Part shown: positions 9,310-31,310 of the stretch, one piece after another | How the letters are laid out: the number at the start of each line of letters is the position of its first letter | Position numbering within the stretch: the first letter of the stretch is position 1 | Assembly (NCBI GenBank): GCA_938010045.1 | Contig: CALLFZ010000001.1 | Coordinates: 1 to 64,000 of the forward strand | DNA: 64,000 nucleotides | Reading direction: 5' to 3' | DNA from: an uncultured bacterium | GTDB taxonomy: Bacteria; Verrucomicrobiota; Kiritimatiellia; PWTM01 | Translations under genes and position numbers: made by a program | Notes under the pieces: model-generated | Database searches by the model: none | What the model was told of the DNA's origin: nothing | What the model saw: only the letters and a program-made list of their open reading frames with translations

Positions 9310-10635
9310 CGACCCTCCGAACTGCTCTGGGTTTGCGCGATGGCGGCGACGGTTTCCGGCGGAGCGCAGCGGCCGAACATCGTCCTGATCGTGGCCGATG
9401 ATCTGGGTGTTCGGTGCATCGGCGTCTGCGGTGGCGAGTCGCACCACACGCCCACACGCCCAACCTCGATGGCCGTGCCGCCGAGGGTGTGCGCTTCGAG
9501 AACTTCCACGTGGCGCCGCTGTGCACCCCCACTCGCGTCGAGCTGATGACCGGCGTGCACAACGGCCATAACTACGTCCAGTTCGGCCGGCTGCCCAAGG
9601 CGGCGCGGAATTTCGGGCACCTCGTCCGCGAGGCCGGCTTCGCGACCGCATTTTCGGAACATGGCAACTGGGTCGGGAATCCGACCTGCCCCGTCGTGCC
9701 GGCGTTCGATGAGGCCGTTCTCTGTCGGCCTACCCGCCGTCCCCCCCCGCTACACGAACCCCGGCTTTGAGAACAACTGGGTCGAAACCAACTTCATGTG
9801 TGGCGCCGAGGGACCGGCGGTGATCCGCGACCACGCGCTGGAGTTCATTCGCCGCTATTGGGGCCGACCGTTTTTCCTCTATTCCGCGATGATGTGAGTG
9901 CACTCGCGGTTTCAGCCCACAACCGACAGCGCCCACTGGAACCAGTTTCCTCATGGCGAGGGGACGAGCGACCCGCGATACTTTGCCGACATGGTCGCCG
10001 CCATGGATGGCCTCGTCGGCCGGTTCGACGCGGAATGGTCGTGCCTGCGACGGCGGGAACGGACCTCGCTGCGTTTCCTCGGGGACAATGGCACGCTCCG
10101 GCAGATGTGTTCCCGGTTTCGCGGCCTGGCGTATTGCGGCAGCAAAAGGCAGATGACCACGCGCGCCACGCACGTGTCGTTCATCGCGAGCTGGCCCGGC
10201 ACAGCCAAACCCGGCCACGTCGTACGGGATTTGGGCGGCGCAGTGGACATCCTGCCGACCATGGGCGAGGTGGCCGGCATCGAACCAGCCGCGGGGCTCG
10301 ACGGCGTAAGCCTTCGGCCTCAGATCCGCGGCCAGACTGGCCGCCTGCGGGAGTGGCTGTAGATTTGGTCGTCGCCTCGCCAGAACGACGGCGACGTCCG
10401 CGTGCGTGAGTTCGCGTTCGGTGCCCGCTGGACACTCTATCGGGATGGAACCCTGGACACGATCAAGCGCGATCCGGCCAAGACGGTTCCGCTGGATCCC
10501 GCAACCGCCGACGTCGAGGCGGTCGCGGCGCGGTAGCGTTGGAAGGCGGCCATCGACCGCTTTGCGAGAACGCGGCCGCCGCAGCCCGACACGATGGCAC
10601 CGGCGCCGACCCAATGTCTTCCTCCTCAGCGCTGA
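9306..10635 (+). pseudogene. Second sulfatase of the cluster, inactivated
   Basis: The ATG at 9306 (GGAGG just upstream) overlaps the preceding stop. The sulfatase sequence is spread over several frames: [13 protein letters not shown], then [14 protein letters not shown] and CTPTR (the sulfatase signature), then [11 protein letters not shown] and FLGDNGT. Frame changes occur near 9330, near 9430 and at a run of eight C near 9745. In-frame stops follow: TGA 9895-9897, TAG 10360-10362 and TAG 10534-10536. Homology-like sequence continues after each one (for example VREFAFGARWTLYRDG). The motif after DNGT is also degraded. Several independent lesions make this a real pseudogene rather than one sequencing error. 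Confidence 0.88.
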
Positions 10636-27167: not shown

Positions 27168-28211
27168 TCAACGCGGCAGGGCGTCGCGGATGGCGCGCAG
27201 CCAGACGCCGTCGGGGTCGCCCTTGGTGGGCACGAGCCATCCACCTTCGCCCAATTCGTTCCATGCAAACACGACCGCATACCGTTCGGGGGTGCACTGT
27301 TCGGGGTGCGTATCCATCCACGAGACGAGTTCCCGCAGGTGGGCCGCAAATTTCTCCGGTGTCCGGCCGGTGTAATACCAGCTTCCGCGCTGGGCATTCT
27401 CCCACGGTCGCCGGTCCCAGCCGACGCTGACGCATGGAATGTGCGGGAGCTCCCGGCTGCCCGCCCACGATTCGCGATGAAGCTGGTACAGACGTTCGAT
27501 CGGGTACTCCTGCCAGCCTTTCATCCAGCCGCCGTTGACATTGTAGCGGGTACTCGCGGCGAATGGCGGCGGAAGTCGAGGTGCGCAGCCGACCCACGCG
27601 ACGCCCGGCAAGCCCGCCTCACGCGCCGCGGCCTCCACCGCTGCCATTCCCTCGGGCAGCGCGTCGGACGGGTTGAAGATGACGATCATCGGGCGGCCGC
27701 GCAACGTCAGGTGGCCAGGCTCGCGAAACAGCGGCACCCAATGGCGCGCGGCGATCGTCCAGTTCTCGAGAGTGCGAAGCTGGAACGAGTCGTGGTTCGC
27801 CACCAGCAGACAAAACCCGAGCCGGGACCGGTTGGGCGCCGAGAGGTACAGCTTCAAGCCCGTATGTTTGGAATCGGCCGCGACCACCTGCGGGTCAGGA
27901 TGAAAGTACCAGCAGAAGGCCCAGAAGCTGAGACCGTGATCCGCGGCCAGGTCAATCTGCCGCTGCATGATCTCCGGTGTGTCGCTGCGCCAGCCCCACA
28001 CCGGTTCGCGATCCGCAAACTCGGTCGCGAGCGGACGTGTCAGATGCGTCGGCGCGTTGGATGCCCACGGCTCCGACGGATGTCCGGAGAACCGGTTCGT
28101 ACCGGACCAGCCGTCAAAGTACCAGGCGCCGAGTCGAATTCGCGGTTCGCTGGCCTGCACACAGGCCACCGCCGCCCACGCGGCCATCACCAACGTTCCA
28201 CGCGCGCTCAT
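27168..28211 (-). CDS. Secreted WbsX-like (GH99-like) protein
   Basis: The 347-residue protein begins with a signal peptide (MSARGTLVMAAWAAVACVQA). It then follows the WbsX/GH99-like plan: RIRLGAWYFDGW, GWRSDTPEIMQRQIDLAADHG, FWAFCWYFHP and a late VFAWNELGEGGW. The late Asn-Glu in AWNELGEG is the conserved acidic element. The family contains endo-alpha-mannosidase-like enzymes and proteins annotated as glycosyltransferases, so the activity is uncertain. The ATG overlaps the stop of the upstream isomerase-like pseudogene (ATGA, 28208-28211), showing that the two were translated from one mRNA. Confidence 0.78.
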   Translation of the reverse strand: MSARGTLVMAAWAAVACVQASEPRIRLGAWYFDGWSGTNRFSGHPSEPWASNAPTHLTRPLATEFADREPVWGWRSDTPEIMQRQIDLAADHGLSFWAFCWYFHPDPQVVAADSKHTGLKLYLSAPNRSRLGFCLLVANHDSFQLRTLENWTIAARHWVPLFREPGHLTLRGRPMIVIFNPSDALPEGMAAVEAAAREAGLPGVAWVGCAPRLPPPFAASTRYNVNGGWMKGWQEYPIERLYQLHRESWAGSRELPHIPCVSVGWDRRPWENAQRGSWYYTGRTPEKFAAHLRELVSWMDTHPEQCTPERYAVVFAWNELGEGGWLVPTKGDPDGVWLRAIRDALPR

Positions 28212-29719
28212 GCCCCGTTGATCCGCTCGAACTTCCACCGCGCACACAACTCATCCACCAGCGGCGTTATATCGCCGTAGAATGTCACGCGGTGCCCACC
28301 ACCCCGCCACTCTTCCGTGAGGCGTTCCATGTCGCCCCGCACGCGCGCGACGAGCTTCGTGCGGCAGGCCATGTCGTTGTCGTCGCAGCCAAGGGTGACG
28401 GCCTGATGCACCGTAATCTGCCGCAGTTCGGGATGGATTTCAACGCGGGTCGTCAGGTAGCCCGCCGGCAGCAGCGATTCGACCGAGGCACCCTTGCGGT
28501 CCTCCGAGTGCGACCGGATCCGGTATGGATAGGCGGGTCCCTGCGGGCCGAACGGCTTCGTCATCGCGACGCAGTGCGCATAGATGATGGCGTGTTGTGA
28601 GGTGTCGATCACGGGATCCGAGATGTACCCCGGCCGCCCGGTCAGCGCGCCGAACACGAGCATGGTCACCGCGGAGCGTACATCGGCTTCTCAGCCACCG
28701 ACCTGACCGTCGTCGTTGAGCTGAGAGAATCCTAGACAGGGATACGCGGCCAGATGACCACCATAAACTCCGCCGAGGCAATTGATCGTGATTCCGCGCG
28801 CGCGGTGCTTTGGCATCAGCGGCGACATCGCGCCGTACATGCGCCCAGATTGGATGATCTCCTCCCGTGTGGGTTCGACCACCGCCTTCGCGGAGGCGAT
28901 CCACCGTTCTGCGAAGGCCTCGGCCGGGTGGGGTCCGCCGCCTCATACGCGGCGGCCAGTTCCTTGAATTCGATCGGAACCAGGGTGATGCCGGTGCTCT
29001 CGGCCACCGCACGCTGCATCGTCGGTGCGACGGCTCGGCCCACGACCAGCAGTTTCATCGCGCGCAGCTCGGCGAACGCTTCATCCATCGGTCGAACCAC
29101 CACGCGGTCTTCGACGACTGGATCGGCCGGTCCGCGCCATGTCCGTTGGCGGCGTTCGCGGCGGAACGCCGCGGCCACCTGCTCCGCGCTCCAGCCGTCG
29201 GCGAGCCGCGCGAAGTGGCGGGCGGAGGCGACAATATCCTCCTCGCGTGAAGAGCTCACCCATTCCACGGGCTTGTTCAGCGCTCGAATTGCTGGTTGCC
29301 GCGTGAGGAAGAGGCCGGAGCCGCCGAACAGGTTGTCCACCACCAGAGTCGGCTTGCCGGTGCCGCACAGCTGGACGACGTCGTTGCGCCATCCGAGGCC
29401 CTGCAGGCAGATGAGATACCCCTGGACCTCGGCGTCGTGAGCGAGTACCGCGACGGCGTCCTCAGGTTTGTCCATGAGCCGGCCACACAGAAATCGAGTG
29501 GGGGCATTCGTGTTCGAGGAGCGAGATGATCTGCTGCCGGCGCGCGTCAACGTCGTAGCCGATATTCGGCCAGATCGGCTTGTCGTTGGTGGTTTCCGCG
29601 AATACGAGCCGCACACGCGGGCGGGCCCGCGCGGCCGGCGGTGCGGCGGTTTGTGCCCACGTGAGCGCGGAGCAACCCGCACAGGCCGCGCAACCCCCGA
29701 GAAATGCGCGGCGGGACAC
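28208..29719 (-). pseudogene. Tat-exported fucose/arabinose isomerase-like protein, inactivated
   Basis: The N-terminal frame starts at a GTG at 29719 (GGAGG about 12 bases upstream) with a twin-arginine-type signal (RRAFLGGCAACAGCSALTWA). The frame then changes near 29500 to AEVQGYLICLQGLG and KPTLVVDNLFGGSG, and changes again near 28930 to MYGAMSPLMPKHRARGITINCLGG. A TGA at 28691-28693 interrupts GQVGG-stop-EADVRSAVTML, exactly where related isomerase-fold proteins usually have Cys. The rest is clear: TGRPGYISDPVIDT, then PYRIRSHSEDRKGASV. Two frameshifts and one nonsense codon make it non-functional. It lies between the IDS-type sulfatase and the WbsX-like gene on the same strand. Confidence 0.82.
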
Positions 29720-29831: not shown

Positions 29832-31310
29832 TCAATCCGCCAGGTTGTCGCGCCGTTGCCCTGTGCCCGGCCCCGCGCGCCGGCTGGCGCCGGTTTCAGG
29901 GTTGCGTCTGCTCGCGCGCCGTTGGTCGGCGGCGCCGTCCTCCACCGGGGCGGCGGGGGCCTCGGTCGCGGGCAGCAACGCTTTGAGCCGCGCGATGATC
30001 GGCGCCGAGTCCGCCCGCGAGACGAGGTTGGTCCATTCGTTCGGGTCGCAGTGGTGGTCGTAGAGCTCCTCCGATCCGTCTTCGTACCGGATGTAGCGCC
30101 ACTGGCGATCGCGCACGCTGTGATTGCCGCGTCCGTGGGTAGTGATGCCCACGCCGTCCCACGGCGCGGCCGGATTTCGTAGCAGCGGCAGTAGGGAGCG
30201 GCCCTGCACATGCGCCGGGATCGGCAGCCCCAACAGGTCGCACACAGTCGGATAGATCGACATGAAATCGACCGGCGCGGCGCATCGTCCGCCGGCGTTC
30301 GCGACGTTCGGAGCGACGACCAACAGCGGTGCGCGCGCGGACTCCTCCCACAGCGTGAACTTGCGCCAGTGCTGTTTTTCACCGAGGTGCCAACCGTGAT
30401 CCGACCATAGCACGATCACCAATCGGTTCGATCGCCAGCTGCGGTCGGCCGCCTCGATCAGCCGTCCGAGCTGTGTATCGACAAAGGCAATCGTGGCCAA
30501 ATAGGCCTGCACGCCCGCCTTCCAGAGGCCGGCTTGGGTCACTGCCGCGTGATCGCCCTGCGACGTGGCCATCCTCACGCCGGCGGGCGGGATGTCGTCG
30601 AGATCGTTCGGGATCGTCGGCGGCAGTTGGATCGTGTCGAGGGGGAACATGTCGAAGTATTTCCGTGGCACATACCAGGGCAGGTGCGGTTTGATGAAGC
30701 CAACGGCGAGAAAGAGCGGGCGGTCATGGCGTTTCTGTAGCTGCTCAGCGCCCCAGCTTGCGAGGCGGTAATCCTGCATGTCCTCATCGGCGGCATCGAG
30801 TGGTCCCCAATCGAAGTGTTCGCGGCCGAGCCCGGTCATGTCGGGCCGCGGAGGCGGCGGGCTGTTCGGAGCGGCATAGTAATCGTCCCAATCGTTGGCC
30901 TGCCCCGGCGGCAGGCGGTGAGTGTGGTAGATCTTGCCGGCGCCCAGCACGAGATACCCCTGTTGCTTCAGATGGCGATTCAATGTGAGCACGCCGTTGA
31001 GCGGGATCGAGAAGGAGTGATGATTATAATAGATGCCCGACGAATACGGCCGCAGGCCGCTCATCAGAGCCGCGCGGGAAGGGTTGCAGGCGGGCGCGGC
31101 GCATTGCGCGGTTTCAAAGAGCACGCCTCGGGCGGCCAGCGCGTCGAGGTGTGGGGTGCGAGCTTGCGGGTGCCCGCCGAGACAGCCGGTCCAATCGTTG
31201 AGATCGTCAATCGCGATGAAGAGCATATCCGGCTTGTCGGTGGCTCCCGAGGCGATGGCGATGATTCCCGTCACGCCTGCGAGGGCGAGCAATCTCTGAA
31301 TGCGGCTCAT
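29832..31310 (-). CDS. Secreted iduronate-2-sulfatase-type sulfatase
   Basis: The 492-residue enzyme is of the type I sulfatase family and closest in layout to iduronate-2-sulfatase-like proteins. A signal peptide is followed by metal-binding IAIDDLNDW and the modification signature ACNPSR with the formylglycine Cys at residue 75. Further motifs are the active-site GKIYHTH, VGFIKPHLPWYVP, and WSDHGWHLGEKQHW. AAGGAGG lies 5 bases before the ATG. The last 30 residues are Arg-rich and low in complexity, suggesting the original stop was lost and the frame extended. It heads the leftward operon with the broken isomerase and WbsX-like genes. Confidence 0.93.
   Translation of the reverse strand: MSRIQRLLALAGVTGIIAIASGATDKPDMLFIAIDDLNDWTGCLGGHPQARTPHLDALAARGVLFETAQCAAPACNPSRAALMSGLRPYSSGIYYNHHSFSIPLNGVLTLNRHLKQQGYLVLGAGKIYHTHRLPPGQANDWDDYYAAPNSPPPPRPDMTGLGREHFDWGPLDAADEDMQDYRLASWGAEQLQKRHDRPLFLAVGFIKPHLPWYVPRKYFDMFPLDTIQLPPTIPNDLDDIPPAGVRMATSQGDHAAVTQAGLWKAGVQAYLATIAFVDTQLGRLIEAADRSWRSNRLVIVLWSDHGWHLGEKQHWRKFTLWEESARAPLLVVAPNVANAGGRCAAPVDFMSIYPTVCDLLGLPIPAHVQGRSLLPLLRNPAAPWDGVGITTHGRGNHSVRDRQWRYIRYEDGSEELYDHHCDPNEWTNLVSRADSAPIIARLKALLPATEAPAAPVEDGAADQRRASRRNPETGASRRAGPGTGQRRDNLAD

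Follow-up and report, generated by a model that had tools for sequence, protein, structure and literature searches.

The 64,000-nucleotide stretch of DNA analysed here (the window), from an uncultured bacterium of the Kiritimatiellia, carries an isomerase-like gene whose reading meets a TGA exactly where related proteins have a cysteine. Is this TGA the footprint of selenocysteine (Sec) in a living gene, or has the gene simply decayed, as the original prediction preferred? The features that bear on this question are as follows.

28208..29719, minus strand: isomerase-like gene with a Tat/lipobox leader, probably decayed (sequence compared with intact orthologs)
29500..29504, minus strand: first frame change, in a C run (compared with an intact ortholog)
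29479..29483, minus strand: second frame change, GCC/GG, ~20 bases further along (compared with an intact ortholog)
28922..28928, minus strand: third frame change, CCCGGCC (compared with an intact ortholog)
28691..28693, minus strand: in-frame TGA at the Cys position of relatives (ortholog alignment)
27168..28247, minus strand: downstream neighbour, intact, WbsX-like (PF14307)
29832..31310, minus strand: upstream neighbour, intact, sulfatase (PF00884)

Three frame changes and a TGA at an invariant cysteine

A single protein is spelled jointly by three frames of the minus strand between 29719 and 28208, opening with a GTG at 29719 and a twin-arginine/lipobox-like leader (SRRAFLGGCAACAGC) and closing at the natural stop at 28210-28208. 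Compared with its closest ortholog, locus L016 of the sister genome G001 (524 aa, 79% identity across the last 237 residues), the gene contains three frameshifts and one stop. The original prediction had counted two frameshifts, near 29500 and near 28930, and both changes are real in the sequence when set against the intact ortholog, but the total is three: because PLDFCVA, the short piece between the first two frame changes, sits in the third frame and matches the orthologs there, the change near 29500 consists of two adjacent one-base length changes. Together the three length changes span ~580 bases, each in a short G/C run, and all of them lie upstream of the TGA, so that the frame is not otherwise open. 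A Pfam search with the broken pieces themselves gave no match.

Six orthologs of 493-555 aa retain an open frame (those in G001, G006, G003, G002 and G013, and L044 from a Saccharicenans MAG). Where the window gene reads ...LNDDGQVGG*EADVRSAV..., these orthologs read VGGCE, VGACE or IGACE, with TGC as the Cys codon in five and TGT in one. The claim that the TGA at 28693..28691 occupies a conserved Cys position was upheld across a wider set of relatives, as Cys was present in 28 of the 28 with a tblastn alignment over the site, down to ~24% identity and always as TGC or TGT; this count comprises the 30 loci L015-L044 minus the window gene itself and minus L026, which has no covering alignment. 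The residue after this Cys is E or D in the relatives; a weak alignment pairs it with the Glu of the EGD motif in L-arabinose isomerase (AraA), a residue that we take to be a metal ligand.

Selenocysteine machinery is missing from the genome

The genome that contains the window is 98.17% complete, and the search for the Sec machinery was based on it. The SelA profile (PF03841) had 0 matches there, and the SelB profile had none above its cut-off of 242 bits, the best match (176 bits) presumably being EF-Tu, as named from its sequence. The SelD profile likewise stayed below its cut-off (48 versus 125 bits), and the sole match over the cut-off of the tRNA-Sec profile was a tRNA-Ser with anticodon TGA according to ARAGORN. 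Eight of the 14 tRNA-Sec-profile matches were read (L007-L014), and they were tRNA-Ser, Leu, Cys, Arg and Phe. A general tRNA profile gave 45 matches in the same genome, and none of the 44 tRNA genes with an ARAGORN-readable anticodon had UCA. The 45th match (L089, G000:C11:113599-113664, 42 bits) is short and tRNA-like, is not accepted by ARAGORN, has no TCA in its middle by eye and is perhaps a tRNA remnant.

These negatives are informative, because the same search recovered SelA in three of the nine genomes of the family (G004, G006 and G007), all three of which also have SelB over the cut-off and a tRNA-Sec with anticodon UCA, at the following places.

G004, contig C43: Sec machinery (SelA, SelB, tRNA-Sec)
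G006, contig C12: Sec machinery (SelA, SelB, tRNA-Sec)
G007, contigs C119 and C160: Sec machinery (SelA, SelB, tRNA-Sec)

Sec use is thus patchy within this one bacterial family; as positive controls, the three genomes cover three of the four components, SelA, SelB and tRNA-Sec. Closer to the window, SelA was absent from the three other genomes of its genus, among which G003 is only 68% complete, and no SelB above the cut-off was found in the near-complete congeners G001 and G002. The tRNA-Sec-profile matches in these two congeners reached at most 52 bits, compared with 79-83 for true tRNA-Sec, and the best one in G001, the only match of the two genomes whose anticodon was read, was a tRNA-Ser.

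The original prediction had also seen no SECIS, and folding agrees with it, as four stretches after the TGA folded no better than their shuffles (z of +0.84, +1.72, +1.63 and +0.07). A literature search on selenocysteine in Kiritimatiellae found nothing relevant. With the Sec machinery missing, no SECIS-like fold and three frameshifts relative to the ortholog, the preference of the original prediction for simple decay over recoding is supported.

Selection on the gene persisted until recently

In the pieces between the lesions, dN/dS to G001 was 0.09 to 0.11, and the lineage-specific changes at the three codon positions were nearly equal in the window gene (12/7/24) and in G001 (11/5/23). At conserved columns, defined as invariant in the five other sequences with L044 left out, the window gene departed at 8 of 150 (a count that includes the TGA), compared with 2 of 144 in G001, 6 of 148 in G006, 7 of 149 in G003, 9 of 151 in G002 and 59 of 201 in G013; its branch was also longer than that of G001 (0.179 versus 0.107). 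The excess of departures was not significant, either against G001 (Fisher p = 0.10) or against the four near orthologs pooled (p = 0.50). The window gene therefore shows a pattern of purifying selection until recently, which makes any decay young: the inactivation, if real, is recent.

In-frame stops in broken genes are all TGA

Sulfatases are very numerous in these two genomes, with 51 PF00884 matches in the window's own genome (3.2 Mb) and 42 in the sister genome G001. An in-frame stop occurs in 2 of the 51 and in 2 of the 42, respectively, and the low count in the own genome indicates that most of its genes read cleanly. The window itself contains a second decayed gene, a sulfatase at 9352-10540 on the plus strand with at least two frame changes and an in-frame TGA at ~9895, where the motif, judged by eye, does not suggest a Cys. 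Including the isomerase-like gene, five of five in-frame stops in broken genes of the own genome and G001 are TGA.

L109 (G000, contig C14): in-frame TGA
L110 (G001): in-frame TGA
L111 (G001): in-frame TGA
Window, 9.9 kb: in-frame TGA
Window, 28.7 kb: in-frame TGA

From single substitutions, the expected share of TGA would be 0.29-0.37. Two of the five seem, by eye and judged against sulfatase motifs, to stand on Trp positions. TGA is also the commonest terminator, closing 144 of 200 open frames of at least 350 aa in 264 kb, and it accounts for ~71% of the stop triplets in the sequence overall, which makes it the stop that a shifted frame most often runs into. Twelve same-frame junctions in the 264 kb look by eye like ordinary gene boundaries, and the TGA-bearing sulfatases show, again by eye, further signs of decay. 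Recoding as the source of the all-TGA stops in the broken sulfatases was rejected on these grounds, TGA being the usual terminator, a UCA tRNA being absent among the readable anticodons and the genes being decayed otherwise; mutation and frame bias probably account for the pattern.

Weighing decay against error and recoding

Taking these observations together, we consider it probable that a gene for an exported isomerase-like protein was inactivated here not long ago. Its reading frame would have been wrecked by the three short length changes, and mutation of the Cys codon into TGA would have cost the protein the Cys beside the Glu that is matched to the E of the AraA EGD motif; with no recoding, translation would stop early and yield fragments only. 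We infer that the lesions belong to the organism and not to the assembly, and the window gene would then make no functional product. What weighs against decay is the tight combination of four lesions that disable the gene and little decay besides, and this is where the strongest competing account begins, namely that local sequencing or assembly errors broke a gene that is intact in the organism, with Cys at the site. A selection signature that is intact up to now fits such errors, as do three length changes confined to so short a stretch and all in G/C runs, as local sequence error gives; the own genome, moreover, was found to hold no other intact copy of the broken gene, just an intact paralog elsewhere, of 30% identity and with the Cys kept. 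Set against this are the absence of internal stops from 49 of the 51 sulfatase matches of the genome, the intactness of both neighbours of the broken gene and the frame changes that the stop-bearing sulfatase at 9.4-10.5 kb also has. We give no weight as evidence to a frame-change scan of 264 kb, which detected 38 of the 60 deletions planted in it, missed the broken isomerase-like gene itself and made 14 frameshift calls that are unverified; its first run placed no in-frame stop inside coding segments, a weak result given the stop penalty. On balance, we regard error as an unlikely explanation, though one to be taken seriously.

Decoding of the UGA is far less credible in any form. The view that a living gene uses it for selenocysteine, or did so before the frameshifts arose, draws on the exact coincidence of the TGA with an invariant Cys and on SelA in related genomes of the family, but the own genome gave no true match to the machinery, its three congeners gave none to SelA and the two near-complete ones none above the cut-off to SelB, no SECIS-like fold follows the TGA and three frame changes precede it. 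In addition, every covering relative has Cys and never TGA, and this includes G006, a Sec user whose ortholog nevertheless has a plain Cys (TGC). As far as sequence can exclude it, selenocysteine recoding at this TGA appears to be excluded, now or ancestrally, and we attach almost no probability to it. Much the same negligible weight falls to the idea that a suppressor tRNA or an altered genetic code lets the UGA specify Cys or some different amino acid. This idea would account for TGA being the stop in all four broken sulfatases as well as in the isomerase-like gene, but it runs counter to the lack of UCA among 44 readable anticodons, the ordinary use of TGA as terminator, the other decay of the TGA-bearing sulfatases and the high share of TGA among stop triplets. 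It is just as improbable that assembly errors account for the frameshifts and that some mechanism other than SelA, SelB and tRNA-Sec decodes the UGA at the Cys site. Were the UGA decoded, insertion of Sec or Cys without known machinery would be a surprise.

Relation to known isomerases and pseudogenes

The lost protein appears, from profile and alignment comparisons, to be a distant relative of sulfoquinovose isomerase and L-arabinose isomerase. Its intact orthologs match about 180 to 290 positions of the profile of SftI, the sulfoquinovose isomerase (NF048012), with 55.6 and 57.8 bits (E ~1e-15), far below the curated cut-off of 700, and, unlike SftI, they carry an export leader. Their central domain aligns weakly with AraA, both by profile (PF24856, 12.6 bits versus 24, which alone is not significant) and against the AraA structures PDB 9vf5, 4f2d and 2ajt (E of 0.084 to 0.61), and 9vf5 has Ala before the E of EGD where the orthologs have Cys. 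A structure model built on a four-row alignment was poor (mean pLDDT 42.9), and a literature search found nothing joining sulfoquinovose isomerase with fucose isomerase. Because the gene stands between a sulfatase gene and a WbsX-like gene, in an order that both neighbours also keep in G001, its protein could plausibly have helped to degrade a sulfated sugar polymer.

For annotation, the locus cautions against calling a selenoprotein on the sole ground that a TGA coincides with an invariant Cys; outside annotation its importance is small. The locus is ordinary, probably one more gene that broke recently, with no selenoprotein hidden in it. Ordinary bacterial pseudogenes display the same pattern, in which a gene that sister species keep intact has suffered frameshifts and a nonsense mutation, and the sole departure from them here is that the stop of the window gene happens to fall on a Cys.
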